This document shows positions 5,601 to 52,036 of a stretch of DNA of 64,000 nucleotides, one piece after another; the stretch's first letter is position 1, and the number at the start of each line of letters is the position of its first letter. Source of the stretch: Monosiga brevicollis MX1 (Eukaryota > Opisthokonta > Choanoflagellata > Craspedida > Salpingoecidae); contig NW_001865057.1 of NCBI RefSeq assembly GCF_000002865.3, positions 590,211 to 654,210 on the forward strand, given 5' to 3'. The notes below the pieces were generated by a model. That model was not told the DNA's origin, searched no databases, and saw only the letters and a list, made by a program, of their open reading frames with translations. A program made the translations under genes and the position numbers.

Positions 5601-6698
5601 GAGGGTGCGCAAGCGCCAGATTTGGGCAGGAACACGGTTCAAGCGGATGTGAGCTACGTTGAGTTCGCCCAAGGGCTGAAGGGGAGTCAAATATGCCAGA
5701 GTACCGGGGTCCAGATCCTTGTTCTTGCTAATGTTGAGCCAGGTGAGCTGTGGCAGGGCTTTGAGATGGTCTGTCCGAGCCCCCAATTTGTTTGAGCTGA
5801 CGTCGAGATGTCGCAGGCTGGGCAGGCGACGTAGAACATCGGGGAGTTGGCGCATGGAGTTGTGCGCCAGGGTGAGCCATTCCAGACGATCAAGCTTGTC
5901 CAGCTCGGCCGGCAGGGTCAAGAGGCGGTTGTGGCTGAGGTCCAAGTGCACGAGGAGGCGGAGGAGCCCAAGATGCGGAGAGATATCACGCAAGCCAAAG
6001 TCACAAATGCGGAGGGTTGTGATGTTGCGGAGCTGCCAGAGGCACCAGGGAAGTTCGCGGAGATAAAAGCTCTGCTGCGTGGGGCTGGCGGTGGTGACAA
6101 AGTGGATCGGTTTGCCTCGAGTGTCCTTCTCAATGCGAAGCGCGCAAGTTTTGCAGACGCGCGAGCGGCTGGTGGAGCGGCTAGGGAGGAAAATGCGAGC
6201 AGGACTACAATCAGCACAGACTCGACTGCCGCAGTTGTTACAAATGTAAGCCCAGTTCAGGAGAGAGAAGGGCTTGCGACACTCGACGCAGTTGGCGTCC
6301 GAGTCGGACACGATGAGACCCTCGCGCCGGGCGGAGGCGTCGGCAAGTTCGCGTCGACGCTGCAGAACCTGAGTGGAAATTTGCTGCAAACGTTGGCTGC
6401 TGATGAGGGTCGGCTCCTCAAGAAGGCGCGCACGCAGCTGTTCCAGCTCCTCCTCCGTCATGGCCTCAATGTCGACCTCCTGGTAACGCTCATAGGCAGC
6501 GGTCTCCGGGTCGGTGGCCTCTTCGTTGAAAGCTTCATCGGCGCCCTCGCCCTCCATCATGCTGGCTCGAGTGGAGGACGGCGGTGTGGTAAAGTCGGGT
6601 GCCTCGATCGGGGGCGGGGCCTCGTGCACCACGTGTCCCTCGACCTGCAGCCGCATGGACATGCGCTGATCCAACAGGAAGGGTGTGTAAACATCCAT
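2691..6698 (-). CDS. FYVE-related zinc finger + leucine-rich-repeat protein
   Basis: The large first exon starts at ATG 6698. It encodes an acidic N-terminus, a short coiled coil, a FYVE-related eight-cysteine finger at about residues 136-190 (CVEC, ICNNC, CADC, RVCKTC), then about 12 leucine-rich repeats (about 226-500) of the LxxLxLxxNxLxxLP type, and an unassigned C-terminal region. The open frame itself would stop at 4518. However, the minus strand continues with phase-compatible exons at about 4461-4408, 4311-3673, 3534-3466, 3367-3138 and 3024-2691, each bounded by AG/GT signals. I therefore read one gene of about 1,160 residues. The donor leaving exon 1 could be GTGCTT at 4541, or a GC-AG type donor (GAG|GCAAGT) slightly upstream. 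The alternative is two adjacent genes. The finger keeps the cysteines and RVC but lacks the basic RRHHCR motif that binds PI3P, so membrane targeting is uncertain. LRR blocks suggest protein binding. Confidence 0.7.
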
Positions 6699-7881
6699 CG
6701 CACCGGCGGCCTCGATGCAAGCAACTGGCGGGCCGGATGCACAGCTTGCACAGCAGATCTAAAAGCACACACACAGCTTGCACGCAAGCGCACACGCACA
6801 CGGATGGGCGGAACAGAGATGCGGAAGCGGCGACCGTCGGCCGTCGGGCGTCAGCCGTCGACGCGAGCCCGAAGGCCCCTCAGCAAACCCCTCTTTGCAA
6901 AAACGGTCTGCTCGCCGCAAAGACCCTGCAGGCACCAAGCCAATCCTCTTCCGCTTCTTGATCTGCCTCGGAGAAGACCAAGGGGGTGGGGGGGGGTGGG
7001 GGGCGTCTCACCCTGCCGTTTGTAGACGACTGCCGGCGCCGCGGGACCGCTCGACTGCCGTTTGTCGGCGCGTTTGAGCTCGTGTGATTTTTTCCGCAAA
7101 CAGCACGCGCAGAGTTTATGCAGGTCCACGTCGAGTTAATGTCGAAAACTGAGACATCGTTTCAAGAGATAATGTTATTAGTATATAGGGTTTATGTAGC
7201 AAAAGTATGCCTTTGTGTTGCGATTTGTCAAAAGCAGCACACATACCCACACACACCTGCTGTGATGTCTCTTTGCTTTTGCAGAGAGGCGCGTGTTCAA
7301 GTGGCACCTCAGCAGGGGGAAGGGCTTGTGGGTGTGGAATGTCAGGCAAAATTAAAGCTTAAACATTACACAGTCAGAGACGCATGGCCCGGTGGGATCA
7401 ACATTCAGAGAGTTTGCGATTGGACGAGTTTTTGGAGACAAACGTAAGAGCGAACCAAGGTCACACTTGTACTCAACCCGGATAAAGTCGTCGAGACGCC
7501 TTGAACCCAAAAAATTTGATGACATTGTGGTCCCCATACTTTATGCTGTTATTTTCAGACTTTTTGTAGAAACCAATAGGATTGTAGCTTTGGAACGTGA
7601 ATGGAATTTTGTTGTTCGTGTCGGCGCGTCACGATCAGCGGGGACGGGGGACAACGGCAGCGCGACCGCTCGATGCGCCGCCACTGCACGCACGGAGCAG
7701 CGTTGACGTCCTCGGCTGGCTGAGGGGCTCAAGGTTGGTGCAGCCCACGCGTTGACCGTATCACCAGGGGCTCCTTTGCGACGATTTGTATCTCATGGAT
7801 CGTTCGTTGCCTTTGTGCAGGTCACCGAGCTTGAGTGTGTTGTGCCGGGTCTCGAAGGAGGCCGCGCCACCGCGCATCATC
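6699..7881. other. Divergent intergenic region
   Basis: This 1.2-kb region separates the FYVE/LRR gene (-) from the SLC35E3 gene (+), so it should hold both promoters. It contains a G-rich tract at about 6984-7004 and short AC-rich runs near 6768-6800 and 7237-7258. Open frames here have no recognisable domain. I see no clear TATA box. Confidence 0.4.
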
Positions 7882-16587: not shown

Positions 16588-16767
16588 TCTCGTTGGTTCT
16601 CAGCCCTCTGCTTTTCTCTGACAAAATGGCCCACAGAGAGAGAGAGTTTGAGAGAGTTTGAGAGAGTTTGAGAGAGTCTGAGAGAGTTTGAGAGAGTTTG
16701 AGAGGGTTTGAGAGAGTTTGAGAGAGAGAGAGAGAGAGTTTGAGAGAGAGAGAGTTTGAGAGAGAGA

Positions 16768-16839
<72 letters not shown>

Positions 16840-17388
16840 TTGGGGCAACACAGATACAGAACACTTGTTTTAAACAGAGACACAACCTGCTTGCATGCTT
16901 GCGTTTACCGTGCATGTAGCCACTACGTTAGCAGCATGGAAGAGCTGGGGGGGGGGGGCGGGGCTTGCAACCTTGGGTGTGGTCGTTGTTATGCACAACC
17001 CCTTCAATGTGTGCTGACAGCACACAGAAAACGCAAGAGGACAGTTGACGCAAGGGAATAAATCCCCCCTTTTTCTTGAGAGAGAGAGAGAGAGCAGCCG
17101 CTCGCTGACTGATGCTGAAACGCTGATTGTGAATGGCAAAGAATACCAACTTCAGCTTCTTCTCCTAAAACGTCGAAAGCTCGGCCGACGGCGCACGTTG
17201 GCCACACCCCGGAAAGAAAAAAAAAGTGCCTGGTCAGGCCCATTTGTGACTGCGCTTTGACTCAGCCCCTCCCGCAACAGCTGCGATTGTCTCGAAAACC
17301 AGGGATCGCACCATGCTGACGCGCCCGACTTGAGGCCTCTAACATCCGGCAACGGAAGAGTCTACATTAATTCTCCGGGCTCACAGAC
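16588..17388. other. Divergent intergenic region between GLRX3 and the TMEM132-like gene
   Basis: This 0.8-kb region should hold both promoters. Much of it is the GA-rich repeat at 16634-16835. A second GA run lies at about 17080-17096 and a G-run at about 16949-16960. No gene is supported. Confidence 0.5.
16634..16835. repeat. GAGAGTTT / (GA)n repeat
   Basis: It starts as GAGAGTTT units of about 8-10 bases and decays into a pure GA run. It begins about 47 bases upstream of the GLRX3 start codon. Ser/Leu-rich open frames across it are artefacts. Confidence 0.9.
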
Positions 17389-20300
17389 ATGATTGGTTCA
17401 AAGTCGTGCGCCAACAGAGCCGCCCTTCTTGGCGCTCTGCCTTTGGCTATCGCGACAATTGCCCTGACCTGCCCTTGGGCAAGCGCCACGTCCAACTGTA
17501 CGTCTTTGCGAGAGCACGACCCAATTCAGGACGGACTTGAGCTGTTGACACGGCTCTTACATCTTTGCTCAACTGTTTGTGCTGTTTGGTAATAGATTCG
17601 GTGATACGGCACCTGAATGGGCCAGGTGAAACTCAGTATGTGCCTGTCAGTGATGCCTTCTCGACCATCGATCTGAGTACGCTAGCCGCACCGCTGGGCG
17701 AACAGACAGGAAGAGTTGCAAAGGAAACTTGGGACGTTGTTCATCTATCAGGTGGCCCTAGCGGCATGGCGGAAAACAGCATAGTCTCGTTGGGACTGGG
17801 GGAGATGTCCGCGGTGGTGGATGCTTCGGCGGTACCAGCAGTGAGCGCCAACAACACCCAAAGCCAGCTGCATACCGTCCAGGTGCAGATGCTGACCCCG
17901 ATTCTGTGGCCATCTATTACCGAGATCCGGGTGCTCCTGCGGGGCCTAGACCGCAACGGCCGACAGCTCACGGGTGGTGGGGTGACAGCCTATGCGCGCG
18001 TGGTCAAGCCTTCAGACGTGGCGGGCGAGGCGGCGCTGGTGCAGGGGTGTCAGTTGGCACCCGGTACTGGGACCTGCGTGGTGAGCCTGGAGGTGCCGGC
18101 CGCATGGTATTCGGAGCCATCGTATGTTGCTGCGGGCAGCCTACTGGGCACGCGCGTGGTACCCGTCTTTGGGCTGACCACGGCCAGCGGCACGGTGAGC
18201 TCATCGTTTGGGCGACTGACGCTACGGCCCGAGGGGAGCGCCGTGGTTTCGGCACGAAGCGCGACTGCGGCGGGTAGTCTGCACGTTACGCTGCCGTATA
18301 GCAGCGTAGAGGACGCATCGGGTGCGGCGCGTGTTTTGTTGAGCACGCGTGTGAGCGCGGCCGGGCTCGATAGTCTGACGATGAGCGTCAGCTTTGAGCA
18401 TCAAGCGTTTGTGGTATCAGGGTTTGAGCCTCTGGCACCGGTTGACCCGACGGCTCTGGCGAGCGTGGCTGCGAGCACGGGCATGGTGGTCTTGACGCAG
18501 CTGGGCGTGAGCGGGCCGCGGACCGAGATTGTCGAGTTGGGCTGGCTACTGCTCGACGTGAACACGACGGTCCAGGCACAGCTCGATGTGTTGGAGACGA
18601 TGAATGTCAGTGTCGCGGCGACGGTGATTGGCATGACGGACCTGGCCGGCAACGCGTTGGGCGTGGATGTCAGTGTGGTACAGGATGCATACGGCTTACA
18701 GAGCGCGGGTTCGAGTACTGGTACAGGCACAATGGTGATGGGCAGTGGACGAGCCGTGTTGGCGGCGTTTGCTGTGCTCGAGGACGACGCGGTGAGCAGC
18801 TTTTCGGGCCTGACGGGTGTACCGGATCAGTTCAATGTGAGCGTTTACTACGCCAGGTCGGGTTGGACTCGCGACATAGTGCTATATGGCTCTGGTGAGG
18901 TGGCTGGGCACGCTGGAGTGGACCTGAGTTGCTCAGGCAGCGCAAACGTGGAGAACGGGTATGGCCATCTGAGTGCCAGCTGCTTGGAGCTGATTGTCAA
19001 TGGGAGCCACAGCACGGGGACGGCGGCGAGCAGCTTGGCACTGACGGTTCGGGCCGTGCGCCGTGATGGAAGTGCGACCACGGAGAGCTCGCAAAACAAG
19101 GAGTGCGTTGTGAGCGCGAGCATATTTGTGGTTGGCGAGAGTGAAGTCGTTGCGGAGAAATCGACGCTGCGACGCGTGACGGACTTGCTGCCGGCAAGTG
19201 TTGGCGATGAGGCGGCGTGTCAGGATTATCAGTATGAGTGGTGTCGTGTTCGGGTGACGGCAACGCTGCAAGCCGTTACCGGCAGCGGTGGTGTTCTGAC
19301 CAGTGCACCGGTCGATGTGACGGCGATAGTCGGGGCACGACTTCGGAGCAATGACACATCGATCGCCACGATGCGGCGATTCGGTCCGTCTGTGGGTACG
19401 GGCATGAGTGCGAATTTGGTTTTTGTGCAGGGCATTGCACCCGGAGCCTTTGTCCTTGAGCTGGGACAGGATACGTCGATCAGCAGCTCCGTGCTGGCGA
19501 GCAGCGAGACACTGTTGTGCAGCGACCTGGGTCGAGTGAACGTGCTTGGGCTGGAAGCCATCTATGTGACTGGCCTGGAGGCGCGGCTGGCCTTGCCCGT
19601 GAGGATGGGACCCGAGGCCAACACGAGCATTGTGCTTACCATTGAACGTGAGGAGCTGTATCGGGTGGGCGAGGCGCCAGGCGCTGTTTTGGTATCTGCG
19701 CTGTTGGATGATGAGACCCGCCTTCCCTTGACGCTGGGCGGCAGCGCGTTTGGGTGGCGCTCACCGCAAGATGGCGAGCTGGTCATGCAGAGTATAGCCC
19801 CAGCCACGGTGGCTGTGCTCGACAATGGTTATGGTGTCGAGGTTGTTGCAGGTGCGCTGGCAGACCATGGCGGTTTGTTAGAGGTGGTTTGGCGCTCGGG
19901 CAACATCTCGAACGGTGCTGAGCACTGTGACGCGAGTGGCACGGCTGGCAAGGTCCTGGGACGCGGCCTTGTTCAAGTTGCCGTGAACGTGTTTGCCCCG
20001 CAGCAACTGAATGGCATTGACTCTGGGGCCGTACCGATCAGTGGCCTTTATTCGCCACATATCGGAAGCCGACTTGATGCACAGGACATCGAATTTCCCT
20101 CGTCATTTTTGAATGCTAGCATGGCTACCGACGGTAGCTCACTTGTTCGACCAGTGGGATATGTGGTTGGCTCGGTGTCTGACTATCGCCGAGAGCTTGA
20201 GTTGGGTGAGGGCACTGTCACGTTAGGACTGGGGGAGATGTCCGCGGTGGTGGATGCTTCGGCGGTACCAGCAGTGAGCGCCAACAACACCCAAAGCCAG

Positions 20301-23300
20301 CTGCATACCGTCCAGGTGCAGATGCTGACCCCGATTCTGTGGCCATCTATTACCGAGATCCGGGTGCTCCTGCGGGGCCTAGACCGCAACGGCCGACAGC
20401 TCACGGGTGGTGGGGTGACAGCCTATGCGCGCGTGGTCAAGCCTTCAGACGTGGCGGGCGAGGCGGCGCTGGTGCAGGGGTGTCAGTTGGCACCCGGTAC
20501 TGGGACCTGCGTGGTGAGCCTGGAGGTGCCGGCCGCATGGTATTCGGAGCCATCGTATGTTGCTGCGGGCAGCCTACTGGGCACGCGCGTGGTACCCGTC
20601 TTTGGGCTGACCACGGCCAGCGGCACGGTGAGCTCATCGTTTGGGCGACTGACGCTACGGCCCGAGGGGAGCGCCGTGGTTTCGGCACGAAGCGCGACTG
20701 CGGCGGGTAGTCTGCACGTTACGCTGCCGTATAGCAGCGTAGAGGACGCATCGGGTGCGGCGCGTGTTTTGTTGAGCACGCGTGTGAGCGCGGCCGGGCT
20801 CGATAGTCTGACGATGAGCGTCAGCTTTGAGCATCAAGCGTTTGTGGTATCAGGGTTTGAGCCTCTGGCACCGGTTGACCCGACGGCTCTGGCGAGCGTG
20901 GCTGCGAGCACGGGCATGGTGGTCTTGACGCAGCTGGGCGTGAGCGGGCCGCGGACCGAGATTGTCGAGTTGGGCTGGCTACTGCTCGACGTGAACACGA
21001 CGGTCCAGGCACAGCTCGATGTGTTGGAGACGATGAATGTCAGTGTCGCGGCGACGGTGATTGGCATGACGGACCTGGCCGGCAACGCGTTGGGCGTGGA
21101 TGTCAGTGTGGTACAGGATGCATACGGCTTACAGAGCGCGGGTTCGAGTACTGGTACAGGCACAATGGTGATGGGCAGTGGACGAGCCGTGTTGGCGGCG
21201 TTTGCTGTGCTCGAGGACGACGCGGTGAGCAGCTTTTCGGGCCTGACGGGTGTACCGGATCAGTTCAATGTGAGCGTTTACTACGCCAGGTCGGGTTGAC
21301 TCGCGACATAGTGCTATATGGCTCTGGTGAGGTGGCTGGGCACGCTGGAGTGGACCTGAGTTGCTCAGGCAGCGCAAACGTGGAGAACGGGTATGGCCAT
21401 CTGAGTGCCAGCTGCTTGGAGCTGATTGTCAATGGGAGCCACAGCACGGGGACGGCGGCGAGCAGCTTGGCACTGACGGTTCGGGCCGTGCGCCGTGATG
21501 GAAGTGCGACCACGGAGAGCTCGCAAAACAAGGAGTGCGTTGTGAGCGCGAGCATATTTGTGGTTGGCGAGAGTGAAGTCGTTGCGGAGAAATCGACGCT
21601 GCGACGCGTGACGGACTTGCTGCCGGCAAGTGTTGGCGATGAGGCGGCGTGTCAGGATTATCAGTATGAGTGGTGTCGTGTTCGGGTGACGGCAACGCTG
21701 CAAGCCGTTACCGGCAGCGGTGGTGTTCTGACCAGTGCACCGGTCGATGTGACGGCGATAGTCGGGGCACGACTTCGGAGCAATGACACATCGATCGCCA
21801 CGATGCGGCGATTCGGTCCGTCTGTGGGTACGGGCATGAGTGCGAATTTGGTTTTTGTGCAGGGCATTGCACCCGGAGCCTTTGTCCTTGAGCTGGGACA
21901 GGATACGTCGATCAGCAGCTCCGTGCTGGCGAGCAGCGAGACACTGTTGTGCAGCGACCTGGGTCGAGTGAACGTGCTTGGGCTGGAAGCCATCTATGTG
22001 ACTGGCCTGGAGGCGCGGCTGGCCTTGCCCGTGAGGATGGGACCCGAGGCCAACACGAGCATTGTGCTTACCATTGAACGTGAGGAGCTGTATCGGGTGG
22101 GCGAGGCGCCAGGCGCTGTTTTGGTATCTGCGCTGTTGGATGATGAGACCCGCCTTCCCTTGACGCTGGGCGGCAGCGCGTTTGGGTGGCGCTCACCGCA
22201 AGATGGCGAGCTGGTCATGCAGAGTATAGCCCCAGCCACGGTGGCTGTGCTCGACAATGGTTATGGTGTCGAGGTTGTTGCAGGTGCGCTGGCAGACCAT
22301 GGCGGTTTGTTAGAGGTGGTTTGGCGCTCGGGCAACATCTCGAACGGTGCTGAGCACTGTGACGCGAGTGGCACGGCTGGCAAGGTCCTGGGACGCGGCC
22401 TTGTACAAGTTGCAGTTGACCCCGCTCCTCTGCACGGAATACTGCCTTTTCCACTTGTTACCACGAGTGGTCTTCTTGTTGACAGCACTCTTTACATCAA
22501 CTCGACTAGCCTAGAATCACCCGTCGAGTTCAAAAGTACCGTCCGTGCCGATCCATTCTCACGTTCGATGTCATTCGACATCCCATCCATCTCGTCACAG
22601 TCCTATTCCATTTCGCAGCCACCCAGGATAGCTGCCGTGGTTGCAACACATGCACACATTTTGAAGGTCGACGTGACACCCGATTCATTGGATACAAGCG
22701 TTGTGCTTTCCGTTGAACGAGAATCGCAACGGCAGATGCCAAGCGACATTGAGTTACAAGCGTCCTTAAAGCTATCAGACGACGTTGACGCCGCTGTGCT
22801 CCCTCGCCATGTCAATGGGTCATGCACAGCGAGCGCCGCGACAGGCGCTTGTATCGTACAACTGCAGTTGCCAAGCAGCTGGCTGCTGAATCGCATAGAC
22901 ATTAACGGCACCGGCCTTCAAGATGGTGGCAGCGCACAGCTGTATGCCAGTATCGGCGAGCAGCCCACAATCCGCTCCAATGGGACTACCGTATTGCTGC
23001 GAGCCCTGGGTCCAGCAGCAACTGTGGCTAGCCCGGCTTTGGAAGCCGGTGGATTGCTGGCAGAGCTGCCTATGCGTCAATTGCTGCCGGAAGAAACTTT
23101 TGATGTTCCTGTTTTTGGCATGTGGTCGCGAAGTTTGCAAGCATTTAGTTTCAGTGCGGCTGTTGATGAGGGATTGGTGATTGATGGCTTTACTGGAAGT
23201 TCTGGCTGGACAGGTGAAGTCTTGGCCCTCGATTCGCGCAATGTCACTGGTACTTTTATCCGTTCTGGGACCGGCAGTTCGGCTGGCCTGCAATTGCTGG

Positions 23301-26300
23301 GCCAATTGCACTTGGTTGTGCGTACTGAGACCGAGCTTGGCCTTGGTTTTGCAGAAGAGCGTGAAGTGGGCGTGACGTTGATGACTTTGTTCTTAAGCGA
23401 TGTGAATGGGCAGGAAGTCATCAACGACATGGCTGGTGCAGAGCTGGCAACACGATATGGTCGCGTGGAGGCTGGTGGCCATGGCTTGGGTCACGTTGTG
23501 GTAGTGAGCGGTGAACGCGTGGTAGGCTTGGTCAGCTATCTACCAGACAGCGTAGAGCTGATCAATACGGCCATTTTGACAGGCAATGTCGAGGAGCGCG
23601 AGCTTGCACATCTGATTGTGCGCCGCAAAGATCTGCAACGCTTTGTTGGCTTCTCGCAAGAGGATTCCGCTTTGAGCTTGAGCTGCAACGGTTCGGGGGA
23701 TGGGCTTCCAGCTGCTCCTTTTGGCGTGAGCGTGGATTGCCATTCCATCTTTATGAATAGCAGTCACAGCAACGCTGGCATTGGCATTGTTGACGTGTCT
23801 TTGACGCAGGTTGGTGTGGCAGAGAATCTGAGGAGCAGCATCAAGGCTGCAGTGTGGGCGCCCGAGCTTCCTGTGGAGGTGTTGGTTGATCGAGCTGAGC
23901 TGCATCCTGTGGCCGAGTGGATAGACCCCAGCATTACAAACATTGCTGATTGCAACAAATTTCAGTACCAGACAGGCACGGTCGAAGTGCGGGCACGGTT
24001 CTCGCTCGGCAACGGCGACTCGGAGCGTGTGGTTGTGACGGATTTGCTAGCGGCCAGCCTGTACGTAAACGAGACTGGTGTGGCCAAGATGCGCCGGCTA
24101 GTTGGTGCGCCAATGGTGCAAGGAGTGGCAGAAGGCTCAGTTGTTGTTGAGGCTCGACGGGCCTCAGACGGGGCATTGCTGGGTCACAGCGACACCATCA
24201 TTGTGGGCCCACACGACGTCTCGCCCATAGTGGTTTTGGGCTTGGATGCCATACTCGTGCACGACGTTGACGTATCACTTCGAGCGGGTGAGGGTGCGAA
24301 TGGCACCGATCTAGTGGATGTCACGCTACGACGGGATTCTTTAAGCGAGGAGGGCATCGTTGATGCCAACGTTCTGGTGAGCGCCGTATTTGACGACGGG
24401 ACTCGTATGCCGCTTTCTGTCGAGCCGGCGGTGCTCCAATCTTCAGACGGCAATGTGTCTGTGCACAGCCTCGCCCCTGCTTCACTGTCGGTGGATGCGA
24501 CACAGACGATTGCTGTGGTTCGTGATGCTGTGAATAGCGAAGGTGGGCTTTTGGAGGCGGTGTGGCTCAGTGCAGCAAGCGCAGCGTGTCCCAGCCGCTT
24601 AATAGGTCGTGGAGACATTGAAGTGAGAGTTGCTGTTCCCCCGGCCGAAAGTGTGATGATCGACAGTTCGGCCACTGTAATTGCTTCGGGCGATGATCCG
24701 GCAAGCGTTGCTGGCATTGCTGTGGAGGCTCAGCTTCGCGTTGCTTTGATCTACCCTGGCCAGCGTCAAGTCGACGCCACAAACGACAATCGGACGGTGG
24801 TAGAGTTGATGGGCGACAATCACTTGGTTTCCCTTTCGCAAGTGGATGGCGGCGCCTTTGTCATTCTGGCTCGTCCAGATGCTGCTGGTCAGAGCGGCAC
24901 GGTCATGGTACGCATTGGTTTTGTTCATGAGCCCATCAGCACCACGTTCAATCTAAGTGTCGTCAGTGGATCGGATGTTGAGATGAGCGTGCATCCATAT
25001 CCGAGTTATAGCGGTAGCCGCGACGTGCAAGCCGACACATTGGCCCCCTACAGCGGCAGCCAACCTTTGCAATATCAACAGGCCATTGTCTCGGCTAACC
25101 TGATCTTGTCAAGCGGGGCCAAGTTGGACATTTCAATGGCGGCAAGCAGTGACTTTGTCCTCACCCCAGCAGGCGCTGCAGTCTCCGCAAGCTTACCTTT
25201 GTTAATGCGTAGCTCGGGTCAATATGTTGTTGGAACCAACCTTAGTAGTGCTTTAACAACAGACGCCATGGTCACGCTATTTGCGACCTATGGCGCCTCT
25301 GGTCGTCGCCAGGTCAACTCAAGCGTGGGCATGCCTCTGACTTTTACGTCGGCGCCGGTGTTTGTGTCAAGCTTTTCTGGCTTTCGGCTAGACAGCGGCA
25401 ACACACTGAGAGGTGTGGTGGATGAGGCAAGCAGTCGACTTCGCGCGAGTTGTACTTTGAGTGACGGACGGCAGCTGAGCGACATGTTTCCAGGAAGCAG
25501 TGGTGTTCTCATTCCAGGACTGGTGGAGTTTACTTCAAGCCGCTCCGATGTTCTTGATGTAGATGCAACTACAGGTCGAGTCACATTGCGTGGCAATGCA
25601 GGCAATGAAATTGAATTGCGCATCATTGCCCGAAGCAACAGCAGCGTTTCGGCTAGTGTGAGTGTGGCGGGCAACCTGGACGCCGATGTCGGCGACGTGG
25701 ACCTCGGTGCAGATGCGGGTCTTCCCGTGCCTGCCAGTCAGAGCGTCGGCACTAGTTTCACGCTTGGTGTCTACGTCAACACCGGCGGTGCATCGGCGGG
25801 TGCGTATGCATTTGAGGTACTCTTTGATCCGGAGGCCCTCGCAGCTACCGAGGCGGTGGCTTCGGTGGATGGGATCTTTTCTGCACGCTTTGATGAGAAT
25901 CGCGTGGTGTTTGGCGGCACGGTCACGGCGGGCGCGGTGCAAGGCACGCGTGTGCAAGTGGCAAGCCTTACGTTTGAAGTTGTCGGCAGTGGCACAACAA
26001 CGGTGTCGGGCGTGGTAACAACGCTCAGCCAATCCAGTGTAGATGCTGCGGATATCGGTTTGGAGACACCGCGCAGTTTTGTTGCGGGGCGTATCGAGAT
26101 CCAGCTCGGGTCCGACCGGCGCAGGCGCGCAGGAAATGCCATGCAATCGGCAACATTGGCCACAATGCGTCAACGACGCGCGGGCACAGTGGCGACAGGC
26201 TATGAGCGCGTGGGTGACGTGAATGGTGATGGTATCTTGAGCGTGCGGGACACGCAGTTTCTGTTGCAGTACTACAACAATAGATTCTCCAACTTTGTCG

Positions 26301-29300
26301 GCGCGCAGGGCGCACAGATTCTTGCAGCGTTAAGTGGGAATAACTACAGTCAAGGAGAGCTGGATGCGGATCAGAATGGCGAGATCAACCCACGCGATGC
26401 CATCTATGTGAACCAGGTTGTATTTGGATTGTGGCGGTTTGTGCGAGGTACGCACGTGGACGAGGTGGCAGCTACGACAGCGTGCGAGCTCGTCATCAGC
26501 CTGCATGTTGTGGGTGCAGGGGGCATGGCGGCGTCATATGATACCACGCGCATCTATGTCGACTTTGAGGGGGGTGAGAGCCTGCGCGGCAATGAGACCG
26601 TGGGTCGGATGCTGGCGGCAAGTGCTGGTCTGGAGAGCGTTGGGCGTTTTTGGACGGCGAACAAGTCGGCATCAGCAGAGTTGACAGGTGTGGTGTTTGA
26701 GGCGATGCCAGGCAATGCTAGTGGTGAGAGTGGGGGCGATGCCGGGCTGTGGCAAGTGCGAGTGCCGACGAGCTTGGTTGCGACGGGAGTTGGCTTGAGC
26801 ATTATCCAGGTCACTCTCGAGACGAGTGAGCCGAGGTTCTTGGTTGGCGCCGAACGTTCGCCCTATGCCAATGGCGCCGAGTTGGTCGTCACGGTTGATC
26901 GTCCATCTCTGCCCACCAGTGCCAACGCGAGGGAGGTGGTATCGAGCGGCGTTGTGGCGGGATACAATCCGCTGCTGCGCTTCAACAATACGATGGACAC
27001 CATCACCTGCAAACTGGAAGCTGGCATATGTGCTATCGGACCTTGTGCGGCTGCTCGGGCCATTGCTGGACAATGTTCACTGGCAGAGAAGAGTGAATGC
27101 TTACTGTTGAACACCACGTACTATCCATCCATCGTTGGAGCATTTGGCGTTCGCTCTTCTGTTTTGCCAATGCCTGAATCAGCGGCATTCGTGGAGACCC
27201 TTCTTAGCCCAGCATGGCAAAATGCGAGCACACAAGACTTGGGGGCAGTTGTGGAATCTACGACAGTTTCTTTTCTCTCCAGTGGTCTTTCGCTTGCTTT
27301 GGGAGAGCAAAATGTTTTATTACAGTTGGATGGCTCGGCTTCAGCTGCCGTTCGTACTTTGACAAAAGCAATGCCTGCAGCCTCAAAGGTTAGCGTTGCG
27401 AGCTTAACAATGCAAGAGGCGTGTCCAGAAGACGTCAGCGTCACGGCAGTTGTACAAGGCCGAGCCGCTAGAGGATCAGTAATATTCGGCGGTTCAAGAG
27501 AGCTACGAGCGTCCCTAAAGCTATCAGACGACGTTGACGCCGCTGTGCTCCCTCGCCATGTCAATGGGTCATGCACAGCGAGCGCCGCGACAGGCGCTTG
27601 TATCGTACAACTGCAGTTGCCAAGCAGCTGGCTGCTGAATCGCATAGACATTAACGGCACCGGCCTTCAAGATGGTGGCAGCGCACAGCTGTATGCCAGT
27701 ATCGGCGAGCAGCCCACAATCCGCTCCAATGGGACTACCGTATTGCTGCGAGCCCTGGGTCCAGCAGCAACTGTGGCTAGCCCGGCTTTGGAAGCCGGTG
27801 GATTGCTGGCAGAGCTGCCTATGCGTCAATTGCTGCCGGAAGAAACTTTTGATGTTCCTGTTTTTGGCATGTGGTCGCGAAGTTTGCAAGCATTTAGTTT
27901 CAGTGCGGCTGTTGATGAGGGATTGGTGATTGATGGCTTTACTGGAAGTTCTGGCTGGACAGGTGAAGTCTTGGCCCTCGATTCGCGCAATGTCACTGGT
28001 ACTTTTATCCGTTCTGGGACCGGCAGTTCGGCTGGCCTGCAATTGCTGGGCCAATTGCACTTGGTTGTGCGTACTGAGACCGAGCTTGGCCTTGGTTTTG
28101 CAGAAGAGCGTGAAGTGGGCGTGACGTTGATGACTTTGTTCTTAAGCGATGTGAATGGGCAGGAAGTCATCAACGACATGGCTGGTGCAGAGCTGGCAAC
28201 ACGATATGGTCGCGTGGAGGCTGGTGGCCATGGCTTGGGTCACGTTGTGGTAGTGAGCGGTGAACGCGTGGTAGGCTTGGTCAGCTATCTACCAGACAGC
28301 GTAGAGCTGATCAATACGGCCATTTTGACAGGCAATGTCGAGGAGCGCGAGCTTGCACATCTGATTGTGCGCCGCAAAGATCTGCAACGCTTTGTTGGCT
28401 TCTCGCAAGAGGATTCCGCTTTGAGCTTGAGCTGCAACGGTTCGGGGGATGGGCTTCCAGCTGCTCCTTTTGGCGTGAGCGTGGATTGCCATTCCATCTT
28501 TATGAATAGCAGTCACAGCAACGCTGGCATTGGCATTGTTGACGTGTCTTTGACGCAGGTTGGTGTGGCAGAGAATCTGAGGAGCAGCATCAAGGCTGCA
28601 GTGTGGGCGCCCGAGCTTCCTGTGGAGGTGTTGGTTGATCGAGCTGAGCTGCATCCTGTGGCCGAGTGGATAGACCCCAGCATTACAAACATTGCTGATT
28701 GCAACAAATTTCAGTACCAGACAGGCACGGTCGAAGTGCGGGCACGGTTCTCGCTCGGCAACGGCGACTCGGAGCGTGTGGTTGTGACGGATTTGCTAGC
28801 GGCCAGCCTGTACGTAAACGAGACTGGTGTGGCCAAGATGCGCCGGCTAGTTGGTGCGCCAATGGTGCAAGGAGTGGCAGAAGGCTCAGTTGTTGTTGAG
28901 GCTCGACGGGCCTCAGACGGGGCATTGCTGGGTCACAGCGACACCATCATTGTGGGCCCACACGACGTCTCGCCCATAGTGGTTTTGGGCTTGGATGCCA
29001 TACTCGTGCACGACGTTGACGTATCACTTCGAGCGGGTGAGGGTGCGAATGGCACCGATCTAGTGGATGTCACGCTACGACGGGATTCTTTAAGCGAGGA
29101 GGGCATCGTTGATGCCAACGTTCTGGTGAGCGCCGTATTTGACGACGGGACTCGTATGCCGCTTTCTGTCGAGCCGGCGGTGCTCCAATCTTCAGACGGC
29201 AATGTGTCTGTGCACAGCCTCGCCCCTGCTTCACTGTCGGTGGATGCGACACAGACGATTGCTGTGGTTCGTGATGCTGTGAATAGCGAAGGTGGGCTTT

Positions 29301-32300
29301 TGGAGGCGGTGTGGCTCAGTGCAGCAAGCGCAGCGTGTCCCAGCCGCTTAATAGGTCGTGGAGACATTGAAGTGAGAGTTGCTGTTCCCCCGGCCGAAAG
29401 TGTGATGATCGACAGTTCGGCCACTGTAATTGCTTCGGGCGATGATCCGGCAAGCGTTGCTGGCATTGCTGTGGAGGCTCAGCTTCGCGTTGCTTTGATC
29501 TACCCTGGCCAGCGTCAAGTCGACGCCACAAACGACAATCGGACGGTGGTAGAGTTGATGGGCGACAATCACTTGGTTTCCCTTTCGCAAGTGGATGGCG
29601 GCGCCTTTGTCATTCTGGCTCGTCCAGATGCTGCTGGTCAGAGCGGCACGGTCATGGTACGCATTGGTTTTGTTCATGAGCCCATCAGCACCACGTTCAA
29701 TCTAAGTGTCGTCAGTGGATCGGATGTTGAGATGAGCGTGCATCCATATCCGAGTTATAGCGGTAGCCGCGACGTGCAAGCCGACACATTGGCCCCCTAC
29801 AGCGGCAGCCAACCTTTGCAATATCAACAGGCCATTGTCTCGGCTAACCTGATCTTGTCAAGCGGGGCCAAGTTGGACATTTCAATGGCGGCAAGCAGTG
29901 ACTTTGTCCTCACCCCAGCAGGCGCTGCAGTCTCCGCAAGCTTACCTTTGTTAATGCGTAGCTCGGGTCAATATGTTGTTGGAACCAACCTTAGTAGTGC
30001 TTTAACAACAGACGCCATGGTCACGCTATTTGCGACCTATGGCGCCTCTGGTCGTCGCCAGGTCAACTCAAGCGTGGGCATGCCTCTGACTTTTACGTCG
30101 GCGCCGGTGTTTGTGTCAAGCTTTTCTGGCTTTCGGCTAGACAGCGGCAACACACTGAGAGGTGTGGTGGATGAGGCAAGCAGTCGACTTCGCGCGAGTT
30201 GTACTTTGAGTGACGGACGGCAGCTGAGCGACATGTTTCCAGGAAGCAGTGGTGTTCTCATTCCAGGACTGGTGGAGTTTACTTCAAGCCGCTCCGATGT
30301 TCTTGATGTAGATGCAACTACAGGTCGAGTCACATTGCGTGGCAATGCAGGCAATGAAATTGAATTGCGCATCATTGCCCGAAGCAACAGCAGCGTTTCG
30401 GCTAGTGTGAGTGTGGCGGGCAACCTGGACGCCGATGTCGGCGACGTGGACCTCGGTGCAGATGCGGGTCTTCCCGTGCCTGCCAGTCAGAGCGTCGGCA
30501 CTAGTTTCACGCTTGGTGTCTACGTCAACACCGGCGGTGCATCGGCGGGTGCGTATGCATTTGAGGTACTCTTTGATCCGGAGGCCCTCGCAGCTACCGA
30601 GGCGGTGGCTTCGGTGGATGGGATCTTTTCTGCACGCTTTGATGAGAATCGCGTGGTGTTTGGCGGCACGGTCACGGCGGGCGCGGTGCAAGGCACGCGT
30701 GTGCAAGTGGCAAGCCTTACGTTTGAAGTTGTCGGCAGTGGCACAACAACGGTGTCGGGCGTGGTAACAACGCTCAGCCAATCCAGTGTAGATGCTGCGG
30801 ATATCGGTTTGGAGACACCGCGCAGTTTTGTTGCGGGGCGTATCGAGATCCAGCTCGGGTCCGACCGGCGCAGGCGCGCAGGAAATGCCATGCAATCGGC
30901 AACATTGGCCACAATGCGTCAACGACGCGCGGGCACAGTGGCGACAGGCTATGAGCGCGTGGGTGACGTGAATGGTGATGGTATCTTGAGCGTGCGGGAC
31001 ACGCAGTTTCTGTTGCAGTACTACAACAATAGATTCTCCAACTTTGTCGGCGCGCAGGGCGCACAGATTCTTGCAGCGTTAAGTGGGAATAACTACAGTC
31101 AAGGAGAGCTGGATGCGGATCAGAATGGCGAGATCAACCCACGCGATGCCATCTATGTGAACCAGGTTGTATTTGGATTGTGGCGGTTTGTGCGAGGTAC
31201 GCACGTGGACGAGGTGGCAGCTACGACAGCGTGCGAGCTCGTCATCAGCCTGCATGTTGTGGGTGCAGGGGGCATGGCGGCGTCATATGATACCACGCGC
31301 ATCTATGTCGACTTTGAGGGGGGTGAGAGCCTGCGCGGCAATGAGACCGTGGGTCGGATGCTGGCGGCAAGTGCTGGTCTGGAGAGCGTTGGGCGTTTTT
31401 GGACGGCGAACAAGTCGGCATCAGCAGAGTTGACAGGTGTGGTGTTTGAGGCGATGCCAGGCAATGCTAGTGGTGAGAGTGGGGGCGATGCCGGGCTGTG
31501 GCAAGTGCGAGTGCCGACGAGCTTGGTTGCGACGGGAGTTGGCTTGAGCATTATCCAGGTCACTCTCGAGACGAGTGAGCCGAGGTTCTTGGTTGGCGCC
31601 GAACGTTCGCCCTATGCCAATGGCGCCGAGTTGGTCGTCACGGTTGATCGTCCATCTCTGCCCACCAGTGCCAACGCGAGGGAGGTGGTATCGAGCGGCG
31701 TTGTGGCGGGATACAACCCGCTGCTGCGCTTCAACAATACGATGGACACCATCACCTGCAAACTGAGAGCTGGCCTTTGTGCCTCGGCTTCATCTTGTCC
31801 TTCTTTCGAATTTCCATCTGGCTCATGCACACTGAGTCAATCCTCAATTTGTCTTCGTATGTTCATGTCCTAGCTCTGTTGTTTGTTTGTTGATTGCGTC
31901 CCATCTTGCTTTTAACACACGTTTGCTTTCCTTTGTATTCAGGTTGTACCGCTTGCGAGGATGGCACCTATGCGAGCGACTGTGGCTTTGAAAATGGGCC
32001 TGGAACTTGTGACAAGGCTCACACCCTGCTGAGCACGTCCAATGCTCTATCAGATGCCGTTGTGGGTGGTGTTGTTGGTGGCATCCTTGCCCTATTTTTG
32101 CTACTTTTTCTTCTGCTGGCGTTGGTGCGCAGTCGCCGGTCCAAAATCAGCTCGCTGGTTACCCCTCACGGGCATTACTTCTGGTGGGCCATCGAAGAGA
32201 ATATCGTACGTTATATTTCGCTTGGCTTGTTTCACGTGCCTGCTTCGGTTGTGATCCAAATCATGATTGATGAACTTATAACTGATGGGCTGCTTGCGCT

Positions 32301-34432
32301 GGGATTGAGTGTAGGAGGTGGCACCAAGCACTGCGCTACAGCCTCGCCGCAAGATTGCTTTCCCACAAAGCACTGGGCGGGTACGGTACGAATGGGGAAC
32401 GCGAACGGTTTTACATCCGGCGTTTGCAGACTTTCTGCTTGCAGAGGAGGCTTTGAAGCGCCCACCAACGGCCATTGTGCCCTCAACGCAGCGCCCGAGC
32501 GTTATTGAAGATGACAGTGCTTCTGAAGGATACATGCACGTTGCTGAAGAAAGTCGGCGCCCAAGCGTGGCAGCTCCCACGGCCACTTTGCTCAGCACGT
32601 TTGGCTTTGAAATGACGACCTTCGCCGTGTTGCCTGACGAATCCAGCGACGTTGCTGACGCGCACAAATCGGGGGCCAAACGCAAGAGTTCACAGTATTT
32701 GGACGTATCTGAGGACCTGTTGCATGGCCTATCGACTCATCCCGGTGTCGTGCTGCGTGTGTGCTGCCTAAATGACGACGTGGAAGGCATCGAGAAGGTG
32801 CTGGAAGATTTTCAAGACGTAGAAAGTCTTGTACATGGCGAGGACCAAACGCAGGAGCTGACTCCACTTCACGTTGCAGCTCGATCTGGCTCAGTTCAGG
32901 CAGCAGCATGCTTACTGCGAAATGGCGCCAGTGTTGATCAAGCCAGCACCAAGTTTCACAATACAGCGCTGCATTTTGCGGCGTGTGAGGGCCATGAGGC
33001 GCTAGTCACATTGTTGCTGCAAGCAGGGGCACGCACGGATGTGTGTGATGTAGCCGGGTATACACCTCTGCACCTGGCCTGCTTGCAAGGCGAAGCGGAC
33101 ATTGTATCTCTGCTTTTGGCGGCCAGCCAGAGCTGCGCACGCTGGACCACTGCTGCTGAGCAGTGGACGCCTCTACATTGTGCATGTCGACACGGTCATG
33201 TTGACGCAGTACGTCGTTTGTTCCAAAAAAGCTTGCCGGCCACAGATGCTTGTGATAGTCAGGGCTGCGTAGCGTTGCATCATGCGGCGCGTGGCGGATT
33301 CTTGCCCGTGGTTGTGCTGTTGGTGGAGGCAGCCTGCACCATCGACGTAAAGAACAACGAAGAACAAGCCCCGATCGACGCTGCAGAAGAGGGTGGGCAC
33401 ACCGATGTTGTCGACTTTTTGCGCGCCGCGCTCGAAGCACAATTGCACCCACCTCCGAGCCCACTACCACCGTACATTGCACCTCCAGTATTTGACTTGG
33501 ATGACACACACGAAGTCACTGAAGAAGTGCCGGCACTCCATTTGTCCTATGTATCTCCTCCCGACTTTGCTGCAGACAGCTTAGAAGTTAAAGAAGCCGC
33601 CCCCGAGATTGCCGAGTATGAAACAGTGACGGCGCGTGACGATGACCTTTATGATCAAGTTCAGACGACCCCACGGTCCTCCCGAGTGTTCTCATCGCCC
33701 TTAGGCATGCATACGGTACGCATCCCGCTGGTATGTGTTTGTTCGTGTTGTTTGCCATGCTTCTGTGCCGAATAATGAGCTTTGCTGGCGTGTTTTGTTT
33801 TTTGTTGTTGTTTTATTTAGGACTACGAAAATCCGCAGGATGCGCTGGCCGGCGAAACTTTGATGGCAGCAGAGAGCGATGATGCGAGCGAGCGTGACGA
33901 ATCACATTATGTCACCTCTGCCGAAGTTCGAGCTCGCAAGGCATCACATGCATCGCAAGTGTCCGCCTTTGAAGTACCGCGAGCCGTCGAAGAGCCCTTG
34001 TATGACAACGACGAGCTGGAGGCATACGCAGAGTACGCGGAAGAGGCTCAGATTGAGTTTATGGATGTTAGTGAGGCCGACGATGAGGGATCCGTGGTTT
34101 TGCCAACGGCGATGGAGAATCCCGTTTACGACAATGATGATGTAAATCCAGCGGCCTTACTGGCCATGCTGGAACAGCACCGCGATGAGTCCGATTTTGG
34201 TGAGGACGATGATCTGGAGGTCGCTCGAGCCCTGAATGAGATTGCAGACGATGCAGTTGGGATGTTCGAGCATTTGAATGCACTCAGTCGTGAGCAAACA
34301 ACAAGGCACAATGTGAACGAAGCAGCACGGATTGGACGGCTCAACATTCCCGAGCTGCGGGAATCGGAGCAGGCGCGACATTTGCGTGACGTCGGCCGTC
34401 TGCAAGTCCCATCAGCTTTTGCAAATTTATAA
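17389..34432 (+). CDS. Giant TMEM132-like receptor: four TMEM132 modules, cohesin/dockerin-like units, TM helix, ankyrin repeats, tyrosine tail
   Basis: Exons are 17389-17497 (signal peptide), 17596-31856 (one 14.26-kb exon), 31943-32205, 32315-33715 and 33821-34432. They give about 5,548 residues if one base missing near 21296 is allowed for; without it the frame stops there. Module pair A covers about residues 102-829 and 913-1640, and pair B about 1760-3177 and 3343-4759. Modules carry TMEM132 hallmarks: LINTAILTG, VWAPELPVEV, FQYQTGTVEV, FDDGTRMPLS and a late RGDIEVRV strand, plus an upstream cohesin-like strand set. B adds Ig/BIG-like segments, a second cohesin-like domain (about 2750-2858 in B1), a dockerin-like pair (GDVNGDGILS, DADQNGEINP) and a Cys-rich end. 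A GxxxG-bearing helix lies at about 4829-4853. Inside are six ankyrin repeats (about 5060-5255) and tyrosine motifs EYETV, LYDQV, DYENP, PLYDND and NPVYDND. I infer a surface adhesion receptor signalling through SH2/PTB partners. Confidence 0.85.
17793..19972 (+). repeat. Tandem module A, copy 1
   Basis: This 2,180-base coding unit is repeated at 20226-22404. Spacing is 2,433 bases (811 codons). All compared stretches were identical except one base missing in copy 2. Sequence before this copy differs from that before copy 2. Confidence 0.95.
20226..22404 (+). repeat. Tandem module A, copy 2 (with one-base deletion)
   Basis: Same as copy 1 apart from GGTTGAC replacing GGTTGGAC at about 21294-21300. 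This turns Gly-Trp-Thr into Gly followed by a stop. A unique spacer of about 253 bases (19973-20225) separates the copies. Confidence 0.95.
22767..27016 (+). repeat. Tandem module B, copy 1
   Basis: This 4,250-base coding unit is repeated at 27516-31765. Spacing is 4,749 bases (1,583 codons). The only difference I found is a silent T (26968) against C (31717) in an Asn codon. About 15 bases just outside the left edge are similar but not identical. Confidence 0.95.
27516..31765 (+). repeat. Tandem module B, copy 2
   Basis: Near-identical to copy 1. The spacer between copies (27017-27515) encodes a unique segment of about 165 residues. After this copy the frame enters a different Cys-rich ending and the transmembrane exon. 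Confidence 0.95.
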
Positions 34433-42120: not shown

Positions 42121-42772
<652 letters not shown>

Positions 42773-45700
42773 ATGAGAAATCCCGCACTTGCGGCTCGGC
42801 TGCAGGGGCGCCTGTCTATCGTCCTTTGGTGTCTTAGTCTGCAAGCAGCGCTCTTTGCAGGGCCTGCAGTCAGCAGCGCCGGCACCACCATAGCCTGGGA
42901 CAACTGCTCGGCACCTCTCTTGGTCACCGAGCCCAGCAGCGGCCATCACGAAGTTGGCTTATCCGTCTCACGCTCTGGGCCAGGGAATGAGACGGAAACG
43001 GTGTGGTGGCAAGTCGTCGATGCTCCCCACGCCGTCAACGATGTGGCGAGTACGTCTGGCTCAGTCATTTTTGCGCCCGGTCAGCTCATGGCCACCGTAA
43101 CTCTTGCCGTTTTGGCCGATGCCGAGCCGGAGATGACTGAGCTGCTGCAACTCGAACTGCTCAACAGCAGCCTGCCAGGCTCTAGCCTCGGCACTGCATG
43201 CAATGTTCGTTCCGTCTTCATCTTGCCAAATGGTTATTCACAAGGCGTCCTCGTTCTTGATCCCTCTGGCCTCTATCGGGGCCAGGAATCCAGGGGAGCA
43301 GCGGCCGTCATCTCCGTGCCCGTGTACCGTTACGGTGGTGCCACAACACTTGCGGGCGCTGCGTTGCGTGTTGTCAACGGCTCTGCAGACTTTGTTTTTG
43401 TAGCTCCCACCTTTGCTTTGCCTGCTGGTACCAATAGCACTGTGGTCTCCCTGTACGTGCGTGACGACGACTTGCCCGAAGACGAAGAACGGTTTGAGTT
43501 GCGACTCGAGTCTGGCGTCGATGTCCTCATTGACCCTCTTTTGAATCAGGCCACAGCCCTGATTGCCGCCTCTGACGGCGCGTATGGCACGTTTGGCTTC
43601 GCCACCAGCCAGACTGTCGTTGGCAGCGAACCTGAATCTGTGGCAGAGGCCGCCGCGCGCCCCATTAATCTTGCTGTGAACCGGACAGGTGGCGTATACC
43701 GAGACATCGCCCTTGCGTGGTCGTTGCGCGCCCTGTCCGATAATGTCAACGCCTCGGCTCAGTTTGTGCACACCAGCGGTACTCTTGTGGTGCCACATGG
43801 GGCCAGAAACAGTACCCTACAGCTCTGGATCCAGCCTGACGACGTCCCCGAGACCCTGCAACAGTTTGAGGTTAACCTCGAGAGCGCCAGCACCGGGGCA
43901 GAGCTCGATGTCACGCGACGTCACGCTCGTGTGGATATTCTGGGTAACGATGACGGCATCGCCATCGATATGCCCGAGCCGGCGCTCGAGGAGAGCGGCT
44001 GGATCAATCTTACCGTCGTGCGCACTGGTCTCTTGGCCTCTCCAGCCGTCGTGGCCTTTTCCACGCATGCTGGTTCAGCCGAGCCCTATCTGGACTACGT
44101 GGCCGTGAGCGGCAATCTCACTTTTGCACCCAACGTCTCCAGCCAGCCCTTGGCCATTCGGCTCATCGATGATCCCGTCTTGGAACCCAGCGAGTTCTTT
44201 CAACTCCACATGACCGTGCTCACCGGGGAGGTGGTGTTGATAACGACACGTCTCAATCTCACCATCGCCCCCTCTGACGGAGCCGCGGGCGTTTTGGGCT
44301 TTGTTGAGCGCAACTCCCTAACCCTCGCGGAGGGGCAGGGGGTGGTGCTTAACGTTTCCCGCCGCATCGTCGCTGCAAGCAGCAATGTGGGCGCCATCAG
44401 CGTGCGCTGGCGCCTTGATCGCGCTGATGGACAGGCCGTGCAGTCCTCGGATTGGGTGCAAGTTGCGGGGGAGCTGAATTTCGCCGACGGCGTAGACCAA
44501 GCCAGGCTGTTGCTGCAGTCCCTCAACGATTCCCTCCCGGAACTGGACACGGAATATAGTCTCGTTTTGCACAGCGCGTCCCCTCCCGCCGTGCTCGGCT
44601 CGGTTGCGCGTCGTAGCCTGCTCATTACCATCCCAGCCAACGATGACCCCTTTGGCACTCTTGTTCTGCATGCAGGTCCTTCTCTGCAGGTTTCAGACTC
44701 TGCTCGCTTCCTGACCATTAATGTTACGCGCTCCAACCATAGCCGAGGGGATATTGGGCTCTGGGCTCGCTGGGCGCGCAATGGTGAGGTGCTGGCCATC
44801 GTGGGTCCGCTAGTGCTCCCCGAAGCCCAGGCAGCCCCTCTTCAAGTGCAGCCTGCTTTGGCAGCACGTCATCGCCTTGTGCCAGCCGATCACCTTGAGC
44901 TGACCATCATCAACGTCACGGTAGTCGGGGTCTATGCCGGCAGCCCTGCTGCTATTCGATTTCCCCCTCGTTTCGCAGAAGCCACGGCCAGCAGCTTTTA
45001 TCCTCTGATTCCAGAGACAGCCGTGGCGGGGACGATCCAATTTGCGTTGATGTCACGCGCCGTAAACGTCCGCGAAATCGAGGGGGTGGATGTGCCAGTG
45101 CAGTTACGGGTTGAGCGTGTCAATGGCACCTTCACCTCTGTGACCTTGCCCTTTACCGTTTCCGGCAATAAAGGCGAGGACGCGAGTAGTGACATGATGC
45201 CCACGAATGGCTTCCTCACGTTTGGGCCTGGGCAGAGAATGGCGCTTCTCAACCTCTCGCTAATCGGAGATGCCGAACCCGAGCTCGAGGAGATTTTGAC
45301 CGTCCAGCTGAGCCCGATTCAAGGCGGGCAAGCCTTTCTAGGATCCGACAACTCCTCAACCATTGTGGTAGCACCGAGCGACGCACCATACGGCCAGTTT
45401 GAGTTAAGTGCCGCCGTTCCGGCTACGCGCACCTTGGCCGAGGGAGAGGCTATGGACTTGATCGTTTTTCGTCAGGCCGGTGCCTTTGGTGACGTGGTTG
45501 TTGGGCTTGACTTTGAGCCAGTCGAGGCAGCAGCGCGCTTCGCGGTTACACCCCGGCAATTAGCTTTTGAAGCTGGTGGCGCCACGGCGGCGAGTCGCCA
45601 GGGGCGCTTTGCGCTCGTGCGCATGGATGATGATGTACCAAACCCGACCGAGGTGGTGGTGGTCACCCTCAGAATCAATGCAACCGCCGGGCCCTCGGCC

Positions 45701-51700: not shown

Positions 51701-51970
51701 CGGTGTGCACGGCCTCGAATTGCTTGGGGGAAGAAGCTCTTGTGTTACCTCGCTGCATGCTCGCTCATGAGCTGCAAAGTGGCTTGCTAGTTTGCATGAC
51801 CGGCGGACAGCATAGCTCATTTTCTTTTTCTCTTGCGTTCGTCCCTCCTCTGGTTTGCTTCTGCTAGGTGACTCTGAGTGTGGCGGGGCAGGAAAATCCA
51901 GCGACCCTCGCGTCCGACGTCCAGCTTCACACAACCAGGTATGGTTTACAGCGCGTGGTCCTGCTGGCAC

Positions 51971-52036
<66 letters not shown>

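Follow-up and report, generated by a model that had tools for sequence, protein, structure and literature searches.

Cohesin-dockerin cassettes with convertase motifs in a predicted TMEM132-related receptor gene of the choanoflagellate Monosiga brevicollis

Animal TMEM132 proteins (TMEM132A-E and C. elegans TMEM-132) are built from BIG/Ig-like domains with a preceding cohesin-like domain and contain a single membrane helix. A gene that shares the Ig-like domains and the single helix, with a putative cohesin-like domain in front of the former, is described here from Monosiga brevicollis MX1; it occupies positions 17389-34432 (+ strand) of the window, i.e., the whole analyzed stretch of 64,000 nucleotides (assembly GCF_000002865.3, contig NW_001865057.1, positions 590,211 to 654,210 of the forward strand). 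What sets the gene apart from its animal counterparts is the presence of more than one module, of a further cohesin, of convertase motifs and a dockerin, and of ankyrin repeats. Its broad architecture is already known, because all five TMEM132 domains in the same order have been published for the lefftyrins, coherins, and hedglings of choanoflagellates and sponges (PMC6030884, in the accessible part of the paper); the suggestion in a preliminary description of this DNA that such a relative may not have been described thus does not hold for its TMEM132-type modules. These three families are cadherin proteins, whereas Pfam gives no cadherin match in the five pieces of the window gene that were scanned.

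A second point of reference is the pairing of cohesin with dockerin in bacteria and archaea, within cellulosomes and outside them. Both partners are recognizable by profile in the cassettes described here, including the two calcium loops of the dockerin, but they share a single eukaryotic surface protein, and the stretch that separates them carries convertase motifs. Peer et al. (2009) reportedly described cohesin and dockerin modules in primitive eukaryotes, some with both modules in one protein. Notch and other non-covalently held cut receptors are comparable only in how they work (a cut ectodomain, a single helix, and inner ankyrin repeats); cutting is a prediction for the window gene, and no kinship is claimed. 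EGF or LNR domains gave no Pfam match in the pieces of the gene scanned, and a different M. brevicollis gene, with EGF, LNR, and ANK, is the one presented as Notch-like in the accessible part of PMC2770060. In the open-access literature (supplements and subscription papers, including the original cadherin papers, lie outside it), nothing on the subject was found for cohesin-dockerin with Monosiga, nor for dockerin or TMEM132 with furin, and the cassette with its cut motifs is apparently undescribed so far.

The gene model comprises five exons on the + strand, and all introns are of the GT-AG type with matching phases (splice sites read by eye). Exon 1 (17389-17497) encodes a signal-peptide-like N-terminus; exon 2 (17596-31856, 14 kb) holds the module array; exon 3 (31943-32205) encodes a cysteine-rich stub and a membrane helix (about 32044-32121); exon 4 (32315-33730) contains the ankyrin repeats (Pfam Ank_2, E-value 1.8e-34), which the preliminary description had also placed inside the cell; and exon 5 (33821-34432) encodes an acidic tail with tyrosines. 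The junctions 31856/31943 and 32205/32315 proposed earlier are identical to those in the splice chain, and the single membrane helix proposed with them agrees with the one helix found in the part of the protein from module A2 onward. The gene therefore has the single membrane helix and cytoplasmic tail expected of a TMEM132 protein. Its predicted product is about 5,550 residues long, provided that a frame break in A2 (see below) is not real.

Self-matching resolves the array into four + strand copies in the order A1-A2-B1-B2, A and B being related yet different. Module A1 (17784-19981), delimited also by Pfam, is a TMEM132-like core without a dockerin; A2 (20217-22413) is nearly identical to it, with a one-base deletion near 21298 in the base alignment; B1 (22751-27033) and B2 (27500-31782) have identical cores. 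What had been taken for one module repeated four times is thus two A copies and two B copies: the strings LINTAILTG, VWAPELPVEV, FQYQTGTVEV, and DDGTRMPLS, cited as TMEM132 hallmarks, occur verbatim only in the two B copies and are represented by diverged counterparts in the A modules. The earlier description mentions neither the frame break in A2 nor the identity of the copies, and it overlooks the second cohesin, the linker with its protease motifs, and the dockerin.

Each B module, after its TMEM132 core and further Ig-like domains, ends in a cassette of a second cohesin, a linker of ~41 residues, and a dockerin. In B1, the second cohesin lies at 25694-26113 (B2: 30443-30862), the linker carries the convertase motifs RRRR at 26117-26128 (B2: 30866-30877) and RQRR at 26168-26179 (B2: 30917-30928), and the dockerin occupies 26213-26443 (B2: 30962-31192). 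The dockerin exceeds the cut-off of Pfam PF00404 (27.8 vs 22.9 bits), possesses both calcium loops, and has 4dh2_B as its best solved match (E 8.1e-8). The genome searched (39.5 Mb, 57 contigs, with the window gene on the contig labelled C38) gave seven matches to the cohesin model PF00963, six of them above the cut-off. A fragment of the Unc18 gene from this genome is identical over 63 of 63 aligned residues to the solved chain 2xhe_A, a Monosiga brevicollis protein. The window's second cohesin is assigned as a cohesin only via homology to such Pfam-positive copies, being 38% identical to the best of them (E 2.6e-12). A profile built from 13 cassettes matches the dockerin sides of solved complexes (4dh2_B, 6.3e-6; 5nrk_B, 6.7e-5; 6kgc_B, 6.2e-5) and, more weakly, the cohesin sides (NagJ 2jh2_A, 0.0021; 4dh2_A, 0.0093; 6kgc_A, 0.018; 5nrk_A, 0.038). 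In the frames examined, every strong second-cohesin match is followed by a dockerin, and 14 of the 17 cassettes have a dockerin whose two calcium loops both conform to the pattern. The cassettes are deeply diverged, with a median end branch of 1.29 changes per column among the 17; as only one of the 14 inner branches of their tree is well supported, no cassette history is drawn from it. The NCBIfam models gave no dockerin or cohesin. Outside this genome, plasmids, phages, and viral contigs yielded no relatives. In prokaryote genomes, a search with a three-row dockerin alignment turned up a single Planctomycetales locus (L051); a dockerin is present there, with no motif seen ahead of it.

The convertase motif R-X-[KR]-R is present in the linker of each of the 17 distinct cassettes, which belong to 14 open frames of one genome; where C38, C40, and C11 carry a cassette a second time in identical form, the duplicate was left out of this count. 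Two or more motifs occur in eight of the 17 linkers (7/13 among those tabulated first). The idea of a convertase site was prompted by the cassettes of C38 (the window gene), C11, and C4, then C22 (two), C31, and C27, whereas ten of the 17 were read only after it had been noted. Six of these ten (C10, a second C22 gene, two in C34, C54, and C40) were found with the Pfam dockerin and cohesin models, which are blind to the linker, and all six contain the motif, as do the four others retrieved by a protein search with the C40 cassette (C54 near 98 kb, C37, a third in C34, and C31 near 403 kb). When linkers are shuffled, the motif persists in 1.9 of 13 on average and in at most seven in 5,000 shuffles, and no motif is located inside the cohesin or dockerin domains of 13 cassettes. 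The residue after the predicted cut is Ala, Ser, Thr, or Gly at 19 of 26 sites. The deep divergence of the cassettes suggests that the motif has been retained rather than freshly copied. According to the accessible part of PMC2770060, choanoflagellates have proprotein convertases, all of which share R-X-R/K-R; the proprotein-convertase P-domain has three matches in the genome searched. Those at C33:124392-124742 and C53:245888-246223 fall within very large open frames, 6,256 and 9,628 residues long, respectively.

By Pfam profile, the B modules are strong TMEM132 matches and the A modules diverged relatives. The piece that runs from the last part of A2 through B1 and B2 matches Ig_TMEM132_4th (E 2.8e-35) and Ig_TMEM132_5th (E 1e-28), far beyond chance. 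In B1, the 4th domain (BIG1) covers 23531-23869 and the 5th (BIG2) 23876-24220. They are preceded by a first cohesin-like domain (23042-23506), the putative TMEM132-type 3rd domain, which has no Pfam match of its own in the window and is placed by its position and by the alignment of its profile to that of the second cohesin (probability 88). Among six other loci, the cohesin-like 3rd domain gives a match in two (E 2.8e-4 and 0.0096, both below the cut-off); searches of solved structures returned no solved cohesin for the first cohesin and nothing useful for the BIG region. Ig_TMEM132_2nd is above the cut-off over the two A copies together (E 3e-7), below it for a single A (17.5 bits) or a single B (15.4 bits), and without a match in the genome search. 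The 6th domain (BIG3) remains below the cut-off (E 0.0027-0.0029) and falls on a later domain, not directly after the 5th. The A module alone matches only the 5th domain, again below the cut-off (E 0.007), and the E-values of A-versus-B profile comparisons, coming from an iteration that included the A copies, are not used as independent support. The B translation, read by eye, contains a cysteine pair in BIG1 and one cysteine each in BIG2 and BIG3, a pattern given as a feature of the TMEM132 family in the accessible part of PMC6030884. Across the genome, Ig_TMEM132_4th is found at 14 places in nine contigs, and the genes in C22 and C40 combine TMEM132 and cadherin domains.

From the domains, their order, the motif enrichment, and the splice-consistent ankyrin exon, all read from the sequence, we infer cutting, clasping within one molecule, a response to force or ligand, and signalling. 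The gene would encode a single-pass choanoflagellate adhesion receptor whose linker is cut by a convertase and whose pieces are kept together by its own cohesin-dockerin clasp ("clip-and-clasp"), a reading that we consider evenly balanced between right and wrong. Its ectodomain would be a chain of TMEM132-type modules, with each B module closed by a cohesin, a convertase-motif linker, and a calcium-binding dockerin. A furin-type enzyme would cut the linker in the secretory path, and cohesin and dockerin would hold the cut pieces together. The membrane chain would then consist of the dockerin, one more extracellular region, the helix, the ankyrin repeats, and the tail, while the outer chain could come off under a pull or be replaced. 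The joint may open in response to pulling, to a ligand, or to calcium loss, and the ankyrin part may report its opening inside the cell. At more than 120 pN, the bond between cohesin and dockerin ranks with the strongest that are known (cited in PMC6030884). More tentatively, all 14 open frames of the genome, as one family of choanoflagellate surface proteins, might be convertase-cut, held by an intramolecular clasp of bacterial type, and made to break away by force, ligand, or calcium loss. The window gene, in which one clasp would follow another and the tail carries ankyrin repeats, would have reached a Notch-like layout independently, and animal TMEM132 would be what remained after loss of the clasp. 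If the classic partner of cohesin is indeed part of one chain with it in the choanoflagellate relatives, and cut motifs separate the two, the ancestral state and a testable binding partner become visible; a cut receptor held by cohesin and dockerin would represent a force-bearing joint of a new type, placed at the root of animals, and the cassette potentially a ready-made engineering module.

Both the number of modules and the connection to the ankyrin exons may be read differently. A1 and A2 match over 2.2 kb, with an identical core of 2,180 bp except for one missing base, and B1 and B2 over 4.3 kb, with an identical core of 4,201 bp; the 11 mismatches (three in A, eight in B) all lie within about 70 bases of the copy ends. 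Because the cores are identical, the copy number may be an effect of assembly: the true gene might have one A and one B module, or other numbers, and the A2 break might be an assembly or base error. The same pattern recurs in C11 (L031/L032), where none of the 66 mismatches lies beyond base 366 of an alignment of about 4,680 bases, and in C40 (L020/L021), with an identical run of 1,255 bp; Ns are present in C40, C31, and C27. Against an assembly effect stand the intervening linkers (235 and 466 bp), each of unique sequence, with the one between B1 and B2 open in frame; a simple tandem duplication would have produced no such linkers. Gene conversion acting on old repeats could account for the copies as well, so that the identical cores may derive from either process, and we give the assembly effect a substantial chance, short of even. 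That the copies arose by simple tandem duplication is judged unlikely, given these unique linkers. As an observation in its own right, three genes of one family (window 17784-31782, C11, and C40) have identical repeat cores with sharply diverged flanks. In A2, base 18866 of A1 lacks a partner near 21298 and a stop codon at 21297-21299 closes the frame; for about 10.6 kb beyond it the next frame stays open, which tentatively points to a base error or to a change of very recent origin. The ankyrin exons could also be a separate gene or isoform outside the receptor, as intron 3 is coding-like in its own frame by codon-use score, which makes it the weakest joint of the model. The GT-AG sites and the matching phases across these 109 bases, the absence of Met from the first 78 residues of exon 4, and codon-use scores that prefer the model frame in exons 3, 4, and 5 (exon 1 is not separated by them) render such a split very unlikely.

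The cassette itself could operate in other ways. A convertase-cut outer chain might leave for the matrix or medium, with the dockerin stub staying behind as a receptor or relic; linkers with two or more motifs would fit such shedding, as their cutting would excise a piece and free the outer chain. The intact pairs of dockerin loops in most cassettes and the constant association of strong second cohesins with a dockerin suggest that the pair still works, and shedding is regarded as unlikely. Alternatively, the linkers may be merely flexible and uncut, the cohesin binding the dockerin of another molecule on the same or a neighboring cell. The presence of both partners agrees with such trans-adhesion, and several modules per protein would provide many-sided binding. 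It is nevertheless unlikely, as all the linkers fit the convertase consensus, the motif is nearly absent elsewhere, and Arg content alone does not yield it in shuffles.

Several observations weigh against cutting followed by clasping within the molecule. A real frame break in A2 would end the protein before the membrane. The cohesin assignment is uneven: when six second-cohesin pieces were scanned separately, two were above and one below the cut-off, and three, the window's included, had no cohesin match, while the second-cohesin profile alone, compared with solved structures, retrieved a chain named Ribonucleases G and E (0.0095) ahead of a cohesin (0.15). The dockerin half of the cassette profile also matches calmodulins (0.008-0.065), and the dockerin of the C11 cassette has no intact calcium loop. 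An extra dockerin-like stretch in C11, without a cohesin or motif, is probably not a dockerin, given the E-values of its own profile (0.04-0.23). The enrichment test favors cutting, with 11 of 14 motifs in 595 linker residues (7 x 85 before the dockerin) out of 26,513 (binomial P 2.5e-16), but it used the first six loci and an 85-residue window already looked at; because the idea arose from these very loci, the ten cassettes read afterward test it more cleanly. The three motifs outside the linkers comprise two behind a membrane helix, on the inner side, and one at an EGF-like stretch of C27. Even among the later cassettes, the matches in C54 (near 98 kb) and C37 took in the linker motif of the query and are thus less independent. 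The linkers are rich in Arg (14% vs 4.7%), so that their basic charge could serve another purpose, and all cassettes originate from a single genome.

The cytoplasmic part contains 699 residues and 15 tyrosines. Acidity around the tyrosines is above chance (P=0.006), whereas Y-x-x-[VILM] is not enriched (five seen vs 3.2 expected, P=0.20). The tail holds two WIRS-like motifs, which are not above chance against shuffles (P=0.16), and one PP1 RVxF-like place (P=0.07). Enrichment of WIRS and tyrosine motifs was rejected as evidence on these values, and the tail motifs provide weak evidence for signalling. Of the proposal that a multi-module TMEM132 relative is joined to ankyrin repeats and wired directly to tyrosine signalling, the first part is upheld by the profile matches and the coherent splice chain; for the second the statistics are weak, the tyrosines and their acidic surroundings being present and the motif set not exceeding chance. 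The ankyrin tail appears unusual, as none was seen in three other cassette genes with tails readable whole or in part (C22, C31, and part of C54). A paralogous tail elsewhere was rejected: apart from the gene itself, the 70 genome matches are confined to the ankyrin stretch, except for one on C13 that runs past it. In the sister cassette gene of C31 (L026/L027), 26 of the 397 residues that follow the membrane helix are tyrosines, and many of these fall within repeated short motifs.

Other features of the window surround the gene. A long GA-rich simple repeat (about 16635-16840) lies directly upstream of it. On the - strand, leucine-rich repeats and a FYVE zinc finger are encoded in one open frame (4518-6758). 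Downstream, the + strand open frames at 42542-60485 contain many Calx-beta domains, the last frame carrying a GPS autoproteolysis motif, and possibly constitute one large adhesion-receptor-like gene.

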